A stretch of DNA of 64,000 bases from NCBI GenBank assembly GCA_012862575.1, contig BLSF01000044.1:300065-364064 (forward strand). Reading direction: 5' to 3'. A program made the translations under genes and the position numbers. The notes under the pieces are model-generated. The model had not been told where the DNA came from and did no database searches. It saw nothing but the letters and a program-made list of their open reading frames with translations. Each line of letters begins with the position of its first letter. The stretch's first letter is position 1. Below, in pieces: positions 16,599 to 63,239 of the stretch. Origin of the DNA: Parietichytrium sp. I65-24A. Taxonomy: Eukaryota; Sar; Bigyra; Thraustochytrida; Thraustochytriidae.

Positions 16599-18266
16599 TT
16601 ACATTGCGGAGCCGATGGTTGAGCTTTCCTGGTAAGTGAAGCCCTTGAATTCGGTGTCTTTGCCAGTGAGTGCGGTTGGTGGAACCACGGAATCAACCAC
16701 GGCTTCCGAAGTGAACTCGGCATCAAAGTTTGAGGTGTCTGTGGTGGACTTGACGCGTGGGACAAACTCGGGCTTGATTTCTTTGCTATACAGACGATCC
16801 CAGTCGATATCTTCAAAAAATTCGTGCGACTTGACCTGCTCCACGTCATCTAGCCCATGGCCGAGGCGGTCCTCCGGGTTGCGCTGAAGAAGACCTGCAA
16901 TGAGAGACCTGGCGCGCGGAGACACAAAGGAAGGAATCCTGAGCTCGCTACTCTGGATGAACTGATACATCAGATTGACATTTTCCGAGTAGAAAGGCGG
17001 GAGGCCAACGAGCATCTCGAACAGGAGGATGCCTAGAGACCACCAGTCCACATCCTTTCCGTGGCCGAGAGACGCGATGACCTCCGGTGCGAGGTACTCT
17101 GGCGTTCCGCAGAAAGTGTTTGCCTGAGCACCGTCAGTGTAGCGCTTTGAGAGTCCAAAGTCAGTTAACTTGATGTGTCCGGTCTCGTCTAGGAGAATGT
17201 TTTCAGGTTTCAGATCGCGGTAGATGATGTTTTTCGAGTGCAAGTGCCCAAGACCTAGGGCAATTTCGGCGGTGTAGAATTTGGCCCTGGATTCTGTAAA
17301 TCGGCGGTCGTTTTTCAAGTGGAAAAAGAGCTCGCCACCAGTGAGGTAGTCCATCACCAAGTACAGCTTGGACTCGGTCTGAAACGCGTAGTGCAGGCCC
17401 ATGAGGAACGGATGCTTGATTTCCTCCAAAATCTCGCGCTCCGCTTTAGTATGTTCAACCTGGTTTCTCTTGATGATAGCCTCTTTGCGCAGAATTTTCA
17501 TCGCAAAGGTTCTGTTCTTGTTCTTATCGCCCTTCTTTTTCACCATCATGACCTTGCCAAAGGAGCCGCGCCCTATCACCTTCAGAAGCTCAAAATCGTC
17601 AGGGCCAACATCACTGGTTTCCTTGCCCCACCCGCTGACCATGCGCTTCTTTGCGACGTGTGCGCAGGAACCGTCAGGGATTCGGAAGCTCCCAGAAGCG
17701 TCCGTTGCGCCACTTCCGTTTCTAGTCAGAATCGTGCCACCGCTGGAGTTGGACATGGTGCTCGAGCGGCGGCCAGACCTCTTGCCCTTTTTAGCCTGGC
17801 TGCGCGTGACACAAACGGACTTGAGCACGATCTGTGGGCTGTACTCTACAATGAGATCTTCGCCTGTGCGCTCCTTGAATGCGCGCTCGATCACCGAAAC
17901 GACCTCGCCTTTCCGCAGGGACATCATGCGGTAGTCATACTCGCTTGGAACGTGCAGTACAAACTCATCAGAGGCCTGGCTGACAGTAAGACTGTCGAGC
18001 TGGTCCAGAGTGATTCTTCGTTTGCATTTGTTAAAGTCGGTGGGCAGCAGGTTGTAGAGCGCCTTATTGGTCACCAAAAGCACGCGTTCTTGCGGCTTGT
18101 CCCGCGGGTTCACCTTGACCAGAAAGTCACTAAAGTACACTTGCTCCGTGTCGCCCGGGCTATGCTTGTTCAACAGCTTGCGCACGGACGCATTGTTTTT
18201 CAGCGCTAGAAAATCGTAATTCTTGCGCTTCTCCGTGGACACCCCGATCTGCGTGGTCATCATCAT
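16599..18266 (-). CDS. AGC-family Ser/Thr kinase with N-terminal myosin-TH1-like domain
   Basis: Protein kinase of 555 residues, single exon. Residues about 10-150 resemble the myosin I tail-homology-1 fold, a PH-like lipid-binding module: KNNASVRKLL, DFLVKVN, RVLLVTNKALY and an IVLKSVC segment. A Ser-rich linker leads to a complete kinase domain (about 224-475) with glycine loop GRGSFG (232-237), Lys257, YRDLKPEN (Asp351), DFG (369-371) and activation segment NTFCGTPEY with phospho-acceptor Thr384. The C-terminal extension ends in FKGFTY (540-545), the hydrophobic motif typical of AGC kinases, with Thr where many have Ser. Membrane-targeted AKT/SGK-like signalling is inferred, with TH1 in the place usually taken by a PH domain. 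Three ATG codons in a row begin the frame. Confidence 0.92.
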   Translation of the reverse strand: MMMTTQIGVSTEKRKNYDFLALKNNASVRKLLNKHSPGDTEQVYFSDFLVKVNPRDKPQERVLLVTNKALYNLLPTDFNKCKRRITLDQLDSLTVSQASDEFVLHVPSEYDYRMMSLRKGEVVSVIERAFKERTGEDLIVEYSPQIVLKSVCVTRSQAKKGKRSGRRSSTMSNSSGGTILTRNGSGATDASGSFRIPDGSCAHVAKKRMVSGWGKETSDVGPDDFELLKVIGRGSFGKVMMVKKKGDKNKNRTFAMKILRKEAIIKRNQVEHTKAEREILEEIKHPFLMGLHYAFQTESKLYLVMDYLTGGELFFHLKNDRRFTESRAKFYTAEIALGLGHLHSKNIIYRDLKPENILLDETGHIKLTDFGLSKRYTDGAQANTFCGTPEYLAPEVIASLGHGKDVDWWSLGILLFEMLVGLPPFYSENVNLMYQFIQSSELRIPSFVSPRARSLIAGLLQRNPEDRLGHGLDDVEQVKSHEFFEDIDWDRLYSKEIKPEFVPRVKSTTDTSNFDAEFTSEAVVDSVVPPTALTGKDTEFKGFTYQESSTIGSAM

Positions 18267-41572: not shown

Positions 41573-44500
41573 TCAGGAAGTGAAGTTTGCGTTCATGAGC
41601 AAGTTTGGAAATTTTTGAGCGACAAGGACAAACTCTTCTCGGTCGATTGTTTGACTTCCGTCATTGTCGCACTGCCGCAATATTGTATCCACCTTCTTAG
41701 TTACCATTGAACGATCCGAGACGAGATGAATCGCTTTGACTATTTCAGTCAACTCGTCACGGCTCAACGACCCACTGCCGTCTTCGTCAAACATTAAGAA
41801 GCAAAAGTTGCAGCGCATTTCAAGAGGAGCCTGCACGAAGTTGGACAGACCAAGGAGGAGCTCACGCATATCTACTCTACCCGTATTCTCATAGTCCAGA
41901 ACCTTGAATAGCTTCTTATATTCCCCGACAGGCTCAACCAACAGAATATCGCACATTGATGAGAAGTCTACCGGGCTGAATTTCGCACCCTGAGCCCTGT
42001 CCAACAGTCTGTACACATATTTGCAAAGTCAGTTAGTCATGAAAAGTCCAACTTTTTTCTCTTCGGGGAGAGACACACACGTACCTGAACTTCTCGAAAG
42101 CTCGCTGAAGATAAGGCAATTTCACCTCGTTCTCCGTGGCGAAGACTTTCATCAACGCCATCTTCTCCTTCTTGTTTCCTGCGTCGGCCTCCCGCTTTGC
42201 TGCCATCTCTTTGGCGTCAAGGCCAAGATTCATGTTCCCGCCCTTCGCTTCCAGAACGCGAGCAGGGCTAAATGATGATGACGAAGGGTCCGGATGCAAT
42301 AGCATGGCTGCGTACTCGTTGAAGGATACCTGTCCGTCTCCATCCCCGTCGACCATCCGAACCATTTCGTCTATCTCTTCGTCGCTGCAAAAAAAATAAT
42401 GTTGTGGTGAATTAGCGTCCCAATTCTTGCGAGCCTGACCCACAACATGCCTTACAATCAACTTACGTTACTAGCTCGCCCATGCAAATCAAGAGATGTT
42501 TTAGTTCGCTCGCTCCGATGAATCCATTCTTGTTCAGATCTATGTATTGAAACGACTGCTCGATTTCCGCATCTGAAGAGGAGTGGGGCAGGAAGGATTC
42601 ATAAATTAGAACCAACATAGGTACATTGCCGGTCGGGTTTAGCATCAACGCGCAAATACTTTAGTCACCGATAAACTCGCAACTTACCTGTAAATTCATC
42701 GCTTAGGCGAGTGACCTGTGGCTCCTTCGCTTTCTTCTCTTCAACCTCCGTTTTCGGCCGGTTTTCTCTCTCCGAATCATCGAATGAATCCATCTCGGGC
42801 TGTAGTAGAGGGTAAGCTACCTTTGGTGGGCCCTGAAAGTCCAGATGCAGGTGGATCTCGCCACACTTGCTGACACGACCCCAATTGTCTTTGTTTTTCA
42901 GGGTCACCCAGGTGTCAATAACGCCTTTCTTGAAGACTGGAAGAAGTGAGAAAGACGCTTTACCGATAAGATCGTTCGATCCAAAGGTGTCCTCATCGAA
43001 GACCTCCATTGTCAATTCATAGTGGTCCACCAGGGACAGAACGTGTGTTTCATCCCACCTCGGGTTTGTTCCACCGTCTTTATCGGTCTTCGTGCGAATT
43101 TTTAGTTCGGAAATGTCAGTTTCCGTTCTTGACGTGTACACGATGAAGGGGTCCTGCTTTCCAAGCGTGTCTTTGTCCACAAGATGCCGTCCTTCGAGAG
43201 TAGTGAGCGTGAGACGTCCAGCTGGAAAAAACTCAAATCTGAGGAGGATTTCGCCGGACAGCCTGTCGAGAGCTTTGCCTTGAAATATCTCGTACCACTC
43301 TTCGTGAACGCGTCCCATGCCTTCGGCTTCAAACTGTTCGACATTTTCTGCGTCCGTAACAAAGTCCAACACATCAAAAACTCGCGCTCCGATGAGGTCG
43401 TCTGACCCTATATCTTCGTCGAAACATGAAAATCGAAGAGACTCTGTCCAGCCCCGAGCGTCTACAAGGAGAAGTACTTGCTCATCGCCAAATGAACAGT
43501 CTGTTCCACCGTTCTTTATCGTTTTCGTTCGCTTGGGATTCTGAGTACCAAGCTCAAATTTACAATACGGATCCTGTTTTCCGAGCATCTCCATATTTTT
43601 CATCTTGCGTCCTTCCTTGCATGTGACCAGCAGATATCCACTCTTGGCCGGGCGAAAACGCATCTTTAAAGTGATCTCACCCGCGGGAGTCCTCGGCGCG
43701 GTTTTCTTCTTTTGATAAAAAAGCCTGTACGTCTGCTCCCGGGAGAAGTTGATCAGTAGCGGAAGCACGGAAACATCGACCTCTCCCAGCACCGCGTCCG
43801 ACAAAATATTGCTGTTCATCACGGTAATGTTCAGTTTGATGTCATTTTCTGCGACGAATGCCTCTGGATCCACCATGTCCAGCACAAACCTCTCCTCGAA
43901 CCTAACATTTTTGTTCTGGTTCTTGTGCACCCTGCCTTTGTAAGTCGGTGCTTTCTTGTGCACGCCAAGCGTGGCTTTGAGGTACGGGTCAATCTTTGTC
44001 GAGCTAATAGCCGCTCCTGCATCGTGCTTTGTCAACGAAGTGCATTCCACCACCTCAATAATAAACCTTCCCGGTATAAGTTTCGGAATGGCCGCTGGCG
44101 CGTTTCGAAACACGTTTCCGTCCTCATCTGGTGGGCGGTCTTCGTCTGCTAAAACACCCTCATCTTGCGGCTCTGGCGGAGGTGGCGGAAACTTTGCGGC
44201 ATCGTCCTCCTTCACTTCTTCGAGCGGCGGAGGAGAGGATGGAGGAGGAGGCATCATTCTCGACTCCACGGGGCTCTTCATCTCTCCGCCTGCAGGAGGC
44301 GGGGACGCGGGGGGCGGCGGCCTGCCGATGCCCGCTCTTATTGCATCGCCTCCCGGCGGCGGCGGTCGCGGCACATTCTTGCGCGCCTCCGGAGGCGCAG
44401 GAGCTCCAGACGGAGGGGGCGGTCGTCCTGCAGGCGCTGGTGGTCTTCCTGCAGGCGCTGGCGGTCTTCCTGCAGGTGCCGGCGGTCTTCCAGCAGGAGC

Positions 44501-45479
44501 TGGTGGTCTTCCTGCAGGCGCGGGTGGCCGTCCTGCCGGAACCGGAGGTCTTCCAGCCGGAACCGGAGGCCTTCCAGCAGGAACTGGAGGTCTTCCTGCA
44601 GGAATCGGAGGTCTCCCTGCAGGAACTGGAGGTCTCCCAGCAGGAACTGGAGGTCTCCCAGCAGGAACTGGTGGTCCACCAGCAGGAACTGGTGGTCTTC
44701 CCGCTGGAACTGGAGGTCTCCCCGCTGGAACAGGTGGTCTTCCAGCTGGGACCGGCGGGCTCCCAGCAGGCACTGGCGGTGCCCCCGCAGGCCTTGGCGG
44801 CAATCCCGCAGGTCTTGGTGGTGATCCCGCCGGCGGTGGGCTTCCTGCAGGTCTTGGCGGCAACCCCACGGGCGGAGGGCTCCCTGCAGGTCTTGGCGGC
44901 AATCCCGCAGGCGGTGGGCTCCCCGCAGGTCTTGGCGGCAACCCCGCAGGCGGCGGGCTCCCTGCAGGTCTTGGCGGCATGCCAGCCGGTCTTGGTGGCA
45001 GTCCAGTGGGAGAGCCAACCTTGGGTTGGGCAGCAGTAGAGATAGCACCTGGCCCTGGAGGAGGGCCGCGTGGTGGCGCGAAATTCATTCCGGCTTTAGC
45101 ACCGGGCTGAGCGGCTTCTACTTTCTTGGGGGGCGGCATGCCGGGCGGAGGTTTGCCCGGCGGGGGGCTGGTCGCGCCGCCTGGTGGTCCTGTTTAGTTC
45201 ATCGATTTGCGATGAAAAAGAAATTCCACAAACGGGTCGACAAAACGCCATCAGTTGAAGTTGGCCACGGATCCGCCGCGGGTTGGGCCGTCGTACGCAG
45301 ACCAAGTCAGTGGGGAGTCTCGTCTCTCGCTGCACTTTTTCGAATGGCAAAGAAAACTTACCTCTGGGCGGTGGACTCCGCGGACCACCGGCCGCCGGCG
45401 GCGCTGCTCTGGGAACATCTGCTCGCGGCGGCGCGCCTCGTGGCGGTGGCCCTCTCGGCCGTGGCGGCGCGCGGTCCAT
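41573..45479 (-). CDS. Pro-rich, triple-C2, five EF-hand calcium protein (5 exons)
   Basis: Exons on the minus strand are 45479-45362, 45189-42688, 42572-42467, 42384-42085 and 42008-41573, joined by GT-AG introns whose phases (1,1,2,2) keep one frame of 1153 residues. Residues 1-410 are Pro-rich, including about 17 heptads of (R)PPVPAG/(R)PPAPAG encoded by 21-bp repeats. Three C2 domains follow near 412-545, 558-690 and 697-830, then five EF-hands in the small exons: DLNKNGFIGASE, DGDGDGQVSFNE, DYENTGRVDMRE, DEDGSGSLSRDE and DNDGSQTIDREE. Calcium-dependent membrane binding plus EF-hand sensing, with a scaffold-like Pro region, is inferred. An extra 5' exon is possible: the frame stays open as EAKGAG upstream of the ATG after a TTTAG acceptor-like site. 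Confidence 0.85.
44410..44795. repeat. 21-bp coding tandem repeat (Pro-Pro-x-Pro-Ala-Gly)
   Basis: About 17-18 imperfect 21-bp units inside exon 2 of the C2/EF-hand gene. The antisense strand is also open for over 380 codons because of the repeat composition. Confidence 0.9.
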
Positions 45480-52113: not shown

Positions 52114-52402
52114 TTTTTCCTTCCTAATGGTATTTTTATTGCGTTGGAAAAGACCCCTGTGCTGACCTTTTGTAAGTATTTATTCATTACATGTGACCGT
52201 GACCACCGTGACTTGAATTTCTGAGAAACTCGAGTACTGACAGAAGTTGGTACCTTTCTTTGCCAACACCGTTTGCGTTTTGGCAGGATGTTTCTCTCTC
52301 TCTGTGGGAAAAGTGGGAAACAGCATTTCTGGTAAAAAAAAAAAGTTGACGCCAAAGGAGCACATCCGCGATCGGTCTCGCGAAAAGAAGAGCCTCTAAA
52401 CG
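52114..52402 (+). pseudogene. decayed LRR exons upstream of the LRR gene
   Basis: 52114-52171 follows a GGAAACAG acceptor and ends at GTAAGT. It reads like the start and end of an LRR exon (...TTGCGTTGGAAAAGACCCCTGTGCTGACC...) with about 26 bases lost from the middle. About 52345-52402 (GACGCCAAAGGAGCACATCC and following) matches the GAxGAAGGAGCATCAGCGATCGGTCTCGCG core of the live exons and especially the last exon (AAGAAAAGTGCCTCT versus AAGAAGAGCCTCT). Both are out of frame or truncated. Confidence 0.7.
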
Positions 52403-52502: not shown

Positions 52503-52553
52503 AGAGAGAGAGCAAATTGTGGACAGAAGAGAGAGAGCAAATTGTGGACAGAA
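52503..52553. repeat. direct repeat of about 25 bp, two copies
   Basis: AGAGAGAGCAAATTGTGGAC is repeated almost exactly just upstream of the LRR gene start. Confidence 0.9.
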
Positions 52554-52605
52554 GAGGTGCCGCGCGCGAAAGAGTCCAAGGTCTGAGACTGCAAAGAATT
52601 GAAAG

Positions 52606-55576
52606 ATGGGCCCTTACGAGGACTCGGAGCTTGAAGGTGGCACGTGGCACATCTACAGGGCGCGGACTTTAGACGAAGCGCTTGAGGCGATGGACCGGAG
52701 AGAGGCTGTGCGGTGAGTGATTGTCTCTTTGCCGACCGAAAGTGAAATGTATTGCGGTGAGTTGCCTAATACGACCGTTCTTTCGTACGCGTTGGGCAGG
52801 TTTGAAGGTAGCCACATGTCTTCGAACTTGGGGCCAAGCGGAGCGATGAAGCTTGCCTTGGCATTACATGGAAACAAAACGCTCCGAGAATTTTGGTAAG
52901 TCATGCAGTCGTTGAGATATTGGCGCTGGAAAAGCAGCATTTTTACTGAACTTGCTCGTGCTTTGCGGCTGACCATTTTTACCTTCTTTTTCATGCACGG
53001 ATATAGTCTTCGAGCCAATAATATTGGGGCCAAGGGAGCATCAGCGATCGGTCTTGCGTTAGAGAAGAACGCTGCGCTGATGTCATTAGAGTACGTGGGA
53101 CTTTGACTCTCGCCCCGGTTTCGTAAAATGTTCGATACCACTAGTGAAGTTCGTGTTGCTTTGCGGCTGACTGTATTTTCTCTCTCTTGGAATAGTCTGG
53201 AAAGGAATGAACTTGGCGCTGAAGGAGCATCAGCAATAGGTTTGGCGTTGGAAAAGAACACTGCGCTGACATCCCTCAAGTACGTAAGACTTTGACTTTG
53301 GCACCGGTTTCGTAAAATACCTCAGTGTCGTCTCTGTTCCTGACCTTGTTTGTCCTTTGCGGCGAACTTCTTTCTCCATCTGTGAATATAGTATTTCATT
53401 AAATGGAATTCCCGCAGCTGGGATTTCATCGATTGGTCTCGCGTTGGAGAGGAATACAGCGTTGAAGGTTCTAAAGTAAGTGTGACTTTGCCCTTACTTT
53501 CCTAAAGTACTCGAGCACATTTGCTTACTTTGATTGTGCTTTGGGGCCGACTGTTTTCCCTCTCTCTGAAAATAGTCTTGAAAGTAATGGAATGGGCGCT
53601 GGAGGAGGATCAGCGATCGGACTTGCGTTGGAGAAGAACACGGCGCTGACGTTTTTGAAGTACGTGTGACTTTGCATTTGGCACCGGTTTTGCAAAACGT
53701 TCGTCGCCTTGACTGAGCTGATCGTGCTTTGCAGCTGACATTGTTTTCTCTTTTACGGAAATAGTCTTGCTAAAAATGCCATTGGCCCTGAAGGAGCATC
53801 AGCGATCGGTCTCGCTTTGGAGAAGAACACTGCGTTGATGTCCTTGCAGTACGTGCGACTTTGACCTCGGCTCTGTGGAATGCCTCGTACGATTATTGAA
53901 CTCGTTTTGGGTTTGCCGCTGACTGCATTTTGTTCTATTTGGGGGCAGTCTTAGTGGCAATACAATTGGCCATGAAGGAGCATCAGCAATCAGTCTTGCG
54001 CTGGAAAAGAACACTTCACTGACGTTGTTAAAGTACGTGATTTTGGCCTTGTTTCGTTGCACACTCCAGCACTTTTACTAAGCTTGTTCGTGTGACAATT
54101 TTCCTCTTCTCTCGTAATAGTCTTGATTCCAATCGCGTTGGTGCTGAAGGAGCATCAGCGATTGGTCTTGCGTTGGAGACGAACGCAGTGTTGACTTTGT
54201 TAAAGTACGTGTGACTTTGGCCTCCGTTTCCTGAAACACTCTAGTACCTTCACTTACCTTGTTTGTCCTTTGCGGCCGATTGTTTTTTCTCTCTCTGGAA
54301 ATAGTATTGGTGGGAATGGGCTTGGGGCTGAAGGGGCATCAGCGATTGGTCTTGCGTTGAGGAAGAACTCTACGCTGTCGTATTTGAAGTACGTATGGCC
54401 TTGGCACCGGTGTCGTGAAATACCCGAGTGCATTTGCTGACCTTGTTTGTGTCTTGCGGCTGCCTTTTTTTTTCTCTTCGGAAATAGTATGGCTATGAAT
54501 GAAATTGGCGATGTAGGAGCTTCAGCGATCGGTCTTGCGCTGGAGATGAACACGGCGCTGACGTCCTTGAAGTATGTGTGACTCTGAGTTTGGCCCCGTT
54601 TTCCTGCAACACTCTAGTATCTTCGCTGACTTATTCGTGGTTTGCGGCTGACTTCATCTTGTCTTTCTTGGGAATAGTCTTCTTGGCAATGCAATTGGCG
54701 ACGAAGGAGCATCAGCGATTGGTCTTGCGTTGGAAACGAACGCTGCGCTGAGTTCGTTGATGTACGTATGGCCTGGATCCCGCTTTCCTGATACACTGTA
54801 GTATCTTTGCTGAATTTGTTTGTGCTTTGCCGCTGGCTATTTTTTCTCTCTCTCTGGAAATAGTATGTATTGGAATGCAATCGGCCCTGAAGGAGCATCG
54901 GCGATCGGTCTTGGGTTGGAGAAGAACACTGCATTGACTTCCTTGGAGTACGTGTGAACTTGGCCCGGTCTAATGAATCAACTCGAGTACCTTTAATGAC
55001 CTTGTTTGTGCCTTGCGGCTAACTTGTTTTTCACTTTCCGGAAATAGTATCTCTTCGAATGGAATTGGTGACAAAGGAGCATCAGCGATTGGTCTTGCTT
55101 TGGAGAAGAACACCACGTTGACATCCTTGAAGTACGTGTGACATAAATATTTGCCACGGCTTCTTGAATTGCTCGAGTATCTTTGCAGGGATTGTGCATG
55201 GTTTGCAGCTGACTTTTTCTTGTCTTTACAGATTTTCTCGCGATATGATTGGCGCTGAAGGAGCATCAGCGATTGATCTTGCGTTGGAGAAGAACATCGC
55301 GCGGGCTTCCTTGAAGTTCGTGTGAAGGCCATGATTTTGTCTTACTGAATATTTTACTTCTCTGTGATCTTTCGTAGAATTTTTTTTTACTGTTCAATAA
55401 GGTTTAACCGAAATGAGGTTAACCCTGAAAGAGCATCCGCGATTAGTCTCGCGAAGAAAAGTGCCTCTTGCTCAGAACTTATTGTTGGTGCAGCGAATTA
55501 CGATGGCTTACTCGGACTGCGGATTTCCTTGTGGAGTCCATCAACACCTGTTGCATTCGAGTTAAACGAGGTCTAA
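52606..55576 (+). CDS. leucine-rich-repeat protein, one repeat per exon (16 exons)
   Basis: 489 residues. Exons: 52606-52712, 52800-52895, thirteen exons of exactly 84 nt starting at 53007, 53196, 53392, 53576, 53765, 53949, 54121, 54305, 54488, 54678, 54864, 55048 and 55232, and a last exon 55402-55576. All introns are phase 2, mostly GTACGT donors and (AA)ATAG acceptors. Each 84-nt exon encodes one 28-residue repeat of the ribonuclease-inhibitor/NLRC3 type: L-x2-N-x-IG-x-EGASAIGLALEKN-x-AL-x-L. Introns are also alike between units, so the duplicated unit is exon plus intron, with a spacing of 172-196 bp. No NACHT, signal peptide or membrane span is seen. A protein-binding scaffold is likely; the partner is unknown. 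The 3' end is convergent with the first LEA-like gene. Confidence 0.9.
53007..55315 (+). repeat. tandem array of 13 exon+intron units (about 184 bp)
   Basis: Thirteen 84-nt exons plus similar introns, period most often 183-190 bp. Intron consensus by eye: GTACGTGTGACTTTGGC, an ACCGGTTTCGTGAAA-like part, CTTGTTTGTGCTTTGCGGCTGA, TTTTCTCTCTGGAAATAG. Confidence 0.92.
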
Positions 55577-55989: not shown

Positions 55990-56460
55990 TTAGTGGTGGG
56001 TTGGTCCAGTCACGTTTTCCTTCGCCGCTGCGAGCTTATCGGCGACGGTATCCTTGGCGCTGGCGAGAGTGTCTGCGACGTAGTCAAGGGTGGACTGGCC
56101 GGTTGCTTTGCTTGCTCTGTGGTCGGCCTTGTCGCCGATCTCCTCGGCCTTGTTGCCGGTCTTGTCGAAGGTGTCCTTAACGGAGGACTTGATCTCGGCT
56201 CCCTTGCGGGCCATCATGTCTCCGGTGCTGTCGGTCGGGTGCTCCGCCTTGGTCTTTGCCTCCTCGGCCTTGTTTCCAGCCTGGTCGGCCATGTTGGATG
56301 CGCCCCTCTTGGTCTCAGCAGCCTTGTCAGCGACGGTATCCTTCGCGTTGTTGAAGGTTTCCTTTACGCTCTCAGCAGCATTGGACATGGCGTCCTTGGC
56401 GCTGTTCCATCCCTGCTCGACGTTCTGTTGAACGGTCTCCAAGGTAGTGTTCTGGGTCAT
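55990..56460 (-). CDS. LEA-like amphipathic-repeat protein, paralogue 1
   Basis: 156 residues from the ATG at 56460 (upstream frame lacks a better ATG). Hydrophilic, Ala/Lys/Asp/Thr-rich, with repeated motifs such as AKDTVADKAAE, GNKAEEAKTKAE, KDTFDKTGNKAEEIGDKA and DYVADTLASAKDTVADKL. These form 11-residue amphipathic helices like group 3 LEA proteins or apolipoprotein-like surface helices. No signal peptide. It could protect against desiccation/osmotic stress or coat membranes or lipid droplets; both are inference. A paralogue of the same length lies 1.1 kb downstream on the same strand (57516-57986). Confidence 0.85.
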   Translation of the reverse strand: MTQNTTLETVQQNVEQGWNSAKDAMSNAAESVKETFNNAKDTVADKAAETKRGASNMADQAGNKAEEAKTKAEHPTDSTGDMMARKGAEIKSSVKDTFDKTGNKAEEIGDKADHRASKATGQSTLDYVADTLASAKDTVADKLAAAKENVTGPTHH

Positions 56461-62720: not shown

Positions 62721-63239
62721 GAATTTACAACCGACAGTTCAAGTAAGTGCTTCGTCGGATTCCCTGACGGCGCTGTAAACCAGGACACTCCGCTCGGGCA
62801 AAATGGCTTTTATGAATATGGTGGCAATGACGGTCCTGTGACCTGCAATAATGTGCGCTTCCCAAATATGTACACGTGTTATGCTCTCATCACCGTGGCA
62901 CCGACAGTTTCGCCTACAGCGGCACCAACGGAAGCCCCAACAACGGCGGCACCAACGGAAGCCCCAACAACGGCGGCACCATCGGAAGCCCCAACCACAG
63001 CGGCACCATCGGAAGCTCCAACTACAGCAGCACCATCGGAAGCTCCAACTACAGCAGCACCAACAGCAGCGCCAACAACAGCAGCACCAACAGCAGCGCC
63101 AACAACGACGTCAGACGCGAATTCACTTGCCAGCGACTCCTCTGATCTTCTGGCGGATGTTTTGAACTCGGGTCATAGCTTTCAACCAACCATAGCCATA
63201 ACCGCGTTGTTTGGCGTTGTGGCGCATTTGTGGCGATAA
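62721..63239 (+). pseudogene. 5'-truncated copy of the Pro-Thr-rich protein gene
   Basis: Begins abruptly at GAATTTACAACCGACAGTT, matching codons of about residue 77 on in the intact gene, and runs open to a stop at 63239. The stalk is longer and more regular (APTEAPTTA, then APSEAPTTA units). No ATG or signal peptide lies upstream; the flank is instead a copy of the 3' flank of the previous unit. It could be an unequal-crossover remnant. An acceptor-like CCGTAG at the junction leaves a spliced form possible but without a donor exon in view. Confidence 0.75.

Follow-up and report, generated by a model that had tools for sequence, protein, structure and literature searches.

A leucine-rich repeat gene of Parietichytrium sp. 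I65-24A with one repeat per 84-nt exon, and its family of paralogues

Plant NLR and receptor-like leucine-rich repeats (LRRs) display hypervariable residues on the exposed xxLxLxx strand, occur in clusters and undergo exchange between paralogues, and as a rule they are not encoded one per fixed-length exon. Brown-algal LRR-ROC-COR (ROCO) genes were reportedly the subject of Zambounis et al. 2012. A later account describes LRR exons of 72 bp in phase 2 that are shuffled, together with diversifying selection, in these genes, and calls LRR-ROC-COR the only domain structure of brown-algal genes (Teng et al. 2024, PMC11378527). In Tetrahymena, LRR genes have exons of exactly 90 bp, >96% of them flanked by phase-2 introns; unequal crossing over is held responsible for the array, a LINE-like element may have taken part, and the design is suggested to have arisen perhaps once. 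The terms ‘hypervariable’ and ‘positive selection’ are absent from this paper (PMC6564038). A study of vertebrate receptors states that most NOD and NLRC genes contain exons coding one 28-aa LRR, with a boundary that is constant within the beta-sheet (PMC6642158).

Here we describe an LRR gene in a 64-kb stretch of DNA, the window (G000:C44:300065-364064, in a genome of 42.5 Mb and 172 contigs), together with its paralogues. The design of one LRR per phase-2 exon is already known, and the brown-algal ROCO and Tetrahymena genes are close precedents. The family works like the brown-algal one, with fixed-length one-LRR exons, phase 2, exon shuffling, probable diversifying selection and ROC-COR in some members; it differs in exon length (84 nt vs 72), in its ribonuclease inhibitor (RI)-type repeats of 28 residues vs 23-24, and in that ROC-COR is followed by TIR and that kinase and LRR-only members exist too. 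The ROC-COR tandem after the LRRs is absent from the window gene and present in a paralogue on contig C12. Shared with the Tetrahymena genes are the exact exon length, the phase-2 introns, the tandem exon/intron units and the large dispersed family; unequal crossing over is a further likeness, and in the window gene would be a candidate process only. The differences lie in the exon length (84 nt vs 90) and in a LINE-like retroelement partner, which was not found here (2 RVT_1 matches in the genome, where weak ones could be missed). As in most NOD and NLRC genes, the window gene has one 28-aa LRR per exon and an exon boundary inside the beta-strand, a position that we take from general knowledge of RI-type LRRs. 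Unlike those genes it has no NACHT domain, and a family of arrays homogenised across the whole genome in this way is not known among them. Plant NLRs differ in their NB-ARC domain, which Pfam reported in none of the three proteins or tails scanned here. Among the literature matches listed there was no report of 84-nt phase-2 LRR exon arrays in a protist.

Structure and surroundings of the window gene

The gene model at 52606-55576 (+), built by joining open segments at GT..AG sites, comprises 16 exons and 489 aa (Table 1). All 15 introns are GT..AG and phase 2, with lengths of 86-112 nt (88-112 nt for the twelve that separate exons 3-15). Read-through of any of them meets at least one in-frame stop, and with the predicted splicing 489 codons stay open over 15 consistent junctions. 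The initial annotation had described thirteen 84-nt exons flanked by phase-2 introns, each coding one LRR, and both statements were confirmed, by the gene model (13/13) and by Pfam, which assigned the window protein to LRR_6 (E 5.6e-63) and otherwise reported LRR families only. Exon 2 would also be 84 nt long under an alternative acceptor, an internal AG ending at 52811. Matches among solved structures were ribonuclease inhibitor 1dfj (E 7e-21) and also NLRP proteins; the predicted product is an RI-type LRR protein with 28-residue repeats. The start in exon 1 is matched from residue 1 in 16 of the 33 other array stretches (E up to 0.06), and the C-terminus in exon 16 has no recognisable counterpart in the paralogues. 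The Pfam scan of the protein gave no NACHT or NB-ARC domain, and inspection by eye no signal peptide. Within the 64-kb window there was no ROC match and no kinase-type part belonging to the LRR gene, the sole kinase match (16929-17597, 24% identity) being an unrelated kinase gene.

The introns, too, had been proposed to be related, with a period near 184 bp, and this was borne out. Tandem Repeats Finder returned a period of 184 over 54138-55142, and 13 introns of the gene have a mean pairwise identity of 66% (56-78%), vs 55.6 +- 4.1% for shuffled family introns. They are related, but apparently old. The further proposal that the gene grew by duplication of an exon+intron unit holds in part: joint copying is seen family-wide, but the window array itself is old, its introns being at most 78% identical. 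The closest relatives of the 13 window units with a scored downstream intron lie in the same array (4), in L015 (6), which is the paralogue nearest to the window gene (C40:58-62 kb), and at other loci (3). Exons 5 and 15 had been named as the most drifted. This is right for exon 5, in which 22/72 bases outside the variable face codons (see below) deviate from the family consensus, and not for exon 15 (12/72), the other twelve 84-nt exons besides exon 5 ranging from 7 to 15 of 72. Exon 15 carries R at position 24, where 405/411 units have L.

Both decayed pieces upstream of the gene (Table 1) look like remnants of a tandem neighbour; as a control, the best of 20 shuffles reached E 0.003. Just 3' of the gene, on the minus strand at ~55990-56460, lies a Lys/Ala-rich coding stretch with internal repeats, LEA-like by eye.

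Table 1. Coordinates of the predicted window gene, its upstream flank and selected paralogous features (window positions unless a contig is named)
Feature	Location	Strand	Description
Exon 1	52606..52712	+	107 nt; start codon and conserved N-terminus; phase 2 end
Exon 2	52800..52895	+	96 nt; first LRR, diverged
Exons 3-15	53007..55315	+	13/13 exactly 84 nt; one 28-residue LRR each
Exon 16	55402..55576	+	175 nt; last LRR and C-terminus
Pre-start stretch	52528..52593	+	82% identical to same place before L015, E 2.6e-11
Decayed piece	52139..52178	+	like 3' part of LRR exon; E 2e-5
Decayed piece	52351..52397	+	most like exon 16; E 1.6e-6 over 52363-52397
Contig-start LRR first exons (examples)	C58:1-81, C4:4-81, C54:360-464, C53:152-256		
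ROC-COR-TIR frame	C12:489770-491950		
ROC-COR-TIR frame	C35:277032-280795		adjoins array match at 281.6-282.1 kb
Array, coiled-coil-like, kinase, Cys-rich tail (L040/L046)	C30:516.5-522.9 kb		relatives on C88, C8, C29, C140, C45

A genome-wide family and exchange between its arrays

Searches of the genome gave 121 matches with the spliced window protein, of which some lie in long frames that lack introns and many are interrupted by stops, and 94 with the DNA of the gene, both numbers being lower bounds. A unit set was compiled from 34 stretches, the window gene and 33 others, some of them adjoining; L010, being the window itself, was dropped, and more members exist beyond this set. It contains 413 repeat units in 48 arrays, of which 411, including the 84-nt reading of window exon 2, were scored as exactly 84 nt by a unit finder that penalised other lengths; in the C12 array the final unit may be 90 nt, with a GTACGT donor 6 nt further on. 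The 329 introns that separate adjacent units fall into all three length classes modulo 3 (123/105/101). Because nearly all units keep 84 nt while the introns keep no phase, the exon length is not due to chance. The first-exon peptide of a paralogue matched 66 places in the genome, 57 of them at E<=0.01 on 40 contigs, and since the first exon of the window gene is absent among these matches the family must be larger still. Intronless genes with 28-aa LRRs are found as well (C99:1.9-10.5 kb, C59:270.9-272.6 kb, C1:1.8-3.5 kb); they form clusters, in many cases close to the end of a contig, and 59 repeats from such genes of the same genome were used as a control set. Their origin as recent retrocopies was rejected, those listed (L001-L009, L011) being diverged, with 31-41% aa identity to the window protein.

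Units of one array shared an identity of 0.703 and units of different arrays 0.692 (sampled pairs); in the intronless control, repeats of one gene shared 0.454. When the closest relative was determined for 329 units, it belonged to the same array in 111 cases (8.9 expected), lay elsewhere in the stretch in 22 and in another stretch in 196, some of the last group in adjoining stretches of one cluster. Apparent unit exchange is genome-wide. Across the family, exon-core distance drops with rising identity of the downstream intron (Mantel r -0.54; 0/500 permutations), which indicates that exon and intron were copied together. Recent block duplications were seen in the paralogues L022 (833 bp at 99.6%) and L016 (363 bp at 99.4%). 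By its pattern of similarity, one C40 paralogue recently formed as a chimera of two neighbouring genes: over the first 1,351 bp it shows 99.5% identity with the gene next to it, and past this point it tracks a third one, with 94-100% identity in each 150-base bin to the last. Similarity is lost over tens of bases, and the rate of loss is about equal in introns and exons (a rough, threshold-dependent estimate); a recombination hotspot in the exon core was not supported. Retroelement-driven copying was rejected, the two RVT_1 matches found, in a search that could miss weak ones, lying on C1 and C11, far from the listed arrays.

LRR first exons accumulate at contig starts. For 14 of the 57 the distance to contig base 1 is below 2 kb; 13 of these 14 point off the contig, two are cut within the exon, and C45 ends inside an array. 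The arrays thus seem to break the assembly, since many contigs begin just before or inside LRR genes that point off the contig; repertoires of this kind would be undercounted for the same reason. Of 26 array clusters, hand-listed on contigs >100 kb of known length only, 9 are no more than 15 kb away from where the contig ends (1.96 expected, p 5e-5). A simple subtelomeric location was rejected: no run of three common telomere repeats was present in the loci examined, the end of C45 falls inside an array and first exons are cut at contig starts. Some contig ends may be real chromosome ends.

Variable face codons and output parts of paralogues

Across the 411 units, amino-acid entropy reaches 3.7-3.8 bits at codons 2, 3 and 5, 3.0 at codon 26, 2.9 at codon 8 and 2.5 at the split codon 28, with every remaining codon at 1.9 or below. 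Values above 2.5 bits thus occur at 5/27 codons (2, 3, 5, 8, 26) vs 14/27 in the intronless control, in which low entropy at structural positions is built in, as its repeat finder fixes them. The variable codons form what we take to be the exposed strand around LxxLxLxxN of an RI-type LRR, position 25, mostly T, being the exception.

In 344 unit pairs without a synonymous core difference, face codons differ at 0.61 of both site kinds, and each of their three positions is close to saturation. The nonsynonymous difference of the face is greater than the synonymous difference of the core in 32/32 arrays with enough pairs, and greater than the synonymous difference of the face in 21/32; in the remaining 11/32 face pN is not above face pS, which is also expected from saturation. 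Single changes were counted in close disjoint pairs selected by the identity of the best flanking intron, with core rates biased down because candidates were limited to at most 8 core differences. At a cut of >=0.88 (78 pairs from 405 candidates) nonsynonymous:synonymous single changes were 51:5 in the face and 103:92 in the core (Fisher 5e-8); mutation alone predicts 25.5% synonymous face changes (binomial p 0.0016). A cut of 0.85 (91 pairs of 803) gave 62:11 and 130:129 (Fisher 4e-8, binomial 0.023), and a cut of 0.93 (51 pairs of 112) gave 25:4 and 49:43 (Fisher 0.0019, binomial 0.10), so that at the strictest cut the face counts are not distinct from mutation alone, though distinct from the core. 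The pattern supports the view that the face residues are under diversifying selection. The suggestion of the initial annotation that the gene varies a binding surface gains support: variation is much higher at the exposed codons than elsewhere in the repeat, and paralogous units show an excess of nonsynonymous change there. In whole duplicated blocks, on the other hand, the pace of change in the face is only about three times that in the introns.

Two units of L037 have identical trimmed flanking introns on both sides and show 6 differences, all in the first 21 exon bases. Clustered face changes of this kind beside near-identical introns resemble the outcome of short exchange no less than that of single mutations. 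Stored face words, similar to VLR cassettes, were not supported as the main source of variety, with 354 distinct 9-base words in 411 units. Seventy-three pairs share a face word; these are mostly near-identical units, ~14 by hand count being between otherwise different units (4.4 expected under codon shuffling, for all pairs), and reuse of face words may be a minor source of variety.

Behind their arrays, some paralogues encode further domains. Pfam detected ROC (6.3e-19), COR-A (2.8e-14) and TIR_2 (1.9e-8) behind the array on C12. On C30 the array is followed by a coiled-coil-like stretch, recognised by eye, a Pkinase match (2.1e-24) and then a Cys-rich tail. The C30-type kinase has, by eye, an HCDLKPHN motif and DFD replacing DFG. 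Its tail is RING/IBR-like by eye only, with no convincing match to a Pfam zinc-binding family, an NCBIfam family or a solved structure. By tblastn, the kinase type is present in at least 8/34 array stretches (one a 64-aa fragment) and the ROC type in at least 2/34 (one a 36-aa piece), and these counts are lower bounds because many stretches end before the 3' end. Genome-wide, the kinase-type query gave 100 matches, the best 22 of 100 at 49-100% identity and some of them pieces of one gene, and most matches beyond the best 22 being general kinases; the ROC-type query gave 21 matches, several beside arrays. An in-frame phase-2 acceptor precedes the output exon in 6/6 joined loci, with a convincing placement only on C12 and C30. 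In the 6 kb examined after the L015 array there is no large forward output-like frame; the one long forward frame 3' of the array is cytochrome-b5 desaturase-like by eye. As the nearest paralogue of the window gene is in this respect like it, LRR-only members may form a class of their own.

Proposed explanation and alternatives

With a probability of about 0.65, we consider the window gene to be an LRR-only member of a large, recombining, fast-diversifying and probably intracellular receptor-like family. Each 84-nt exon would yield one ribonuclease-inhibitor-type LRR, the splicing itself being inferred from sequence, and since every intron is in phase 2, units could be gained, lost or swapped in frame. 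Duplicated units and blocks, together with exchange from gene to gene, would reshape the arrays, as seen in paralogues. Between-gene exchange would keep most of the repeat alike genome-wide, and diversifying selection would push apart the concave-face residues (codons 2, 3, 5 and 26, to a lesser extent 8 and 28). Because the intron position falls inside the face strand, with codon 26 before it and codon 2 after it, exchange could also join half-strands of different origin. The ROC-COR-TIR or coiled coil-kinase-Cys-rich parts of other members look like signalling outputs, and the family would therefore most likely sense varied ligands, probably non-self, inside the cell. The window gene, without such a part, might encode a soluble binder, a decoy or a partner of these receptors. 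Weighing against the whole reading are the face counts at the strictest cut, the 11/32 arrays with face pN not above face pS, the only threefold faster change of the face in duplicated blocks, and, for the window gene, the missing output part and a C-terminus without recognisable counterpart.

In brown algae the fixed-length phase-2 LRR design is a candidate receptor system, and in Tetrahymena a single origin of the design has been suggested. The present family would add a further case, with 84-nt exons, a homogenised core vs a hypervariable face, and swappable outputs including TIR, and would make testable the idea that the fixed-length LRR-exon design has been selected repeatedly as a generator of binding variety. 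A bolder version, which we rate as a long shot, is that the repertoire is actively reshuffled, perhaps within clones, by recombination of units and half-strands among dozens of genes with interchangeable ROC-COR-TIR or kinase outputs; this would represent a recombination-based recognition system outside animals.

The variety of the face could also have arisen without selection for it, if face codons were merely free while structural demands and homogenisation among the copies held the core. In LRRs the core codons serve the structure, the repeats are homogenised genome-wide, and at family scale the synonymous sites of the face are as divergent as the nonsynonymous ones. Free sites should, however, match the introns, and where duplicated blocks are 88-92% identical, the difference amounts to 0.30-0.35 in the face and 0.10 in the introns, roughly threefold; moreover, nonsynonymous changes exceed the expectation from mutation at two of the three cuts (p 0.0016 and 0.023, with 0.10 at the strictest). 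We regard this explanation as distinctly improbable. Even less credence is given to targeted hypermutation, of the diversity-generating retroelement or somatic hypermutation type, as the process rewriting the face codons. It would account for the near-saturation of the face in the 344 pairs, for the differences packed into 21 bases of the L037 units and for the 51/204 face codons changed by 2-3 bases, but short unit-to-unit exchange can also yield multi-base changes, and the genome has only the two reverse-transcriptase matches. When codons with no more than one change are compared, the face shows no raised level of synonymous single changes (4/128 codons vs 43/1111 in the core), and diversifying selection is favoured over targeted mutation on this ground.

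For the window gene itself, as distinct from its family, decay or silence deserves more weight, and remains on balance unlikely: the gene would be a former receptor severed from its output part. The window has no kinase-type or ROC-type part belonging to it, exon 15 is without a structural leucine, a decayed relative lies immediately upstream and the array is old; on the other side stand the 489 open codons over consistent junctions, the conserved first exon and upstream stretch, and L015, which likewise shows no output-like large forward frame after its array. It is scarcely credible that the exon/intron boundaries have been misplaced and that the array consists of repeat DNA without a coding role, given exons that hold a length of 84 while intron lengths keep no phase, the LRR amino-acid pattern with its Pfam score, and the codon-wise pattern of selection.

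Other repetitive and large coding sequences were noted in the course of the analysis. On C66 (G000:C66:8.5-22.5 kb) several ketosynthase-like matches fall in an open frame of 5,583 aa, which resembles a giant polyketide synthase gene; PfaA itself gave no match above the cut-off, and searches for photosystem-II reaction-centre and light-harvesting families had no match in the genome. Within the window, tandem repeats of 21, 63 and 39 nt at 44421-44979 code Pro/Ala-rich repeats and lie in an 824-aa minus-strand frame (42665-45139), and a 27-nt tandem array of 7.1 copies with 92% matches is located at 62916-63106.
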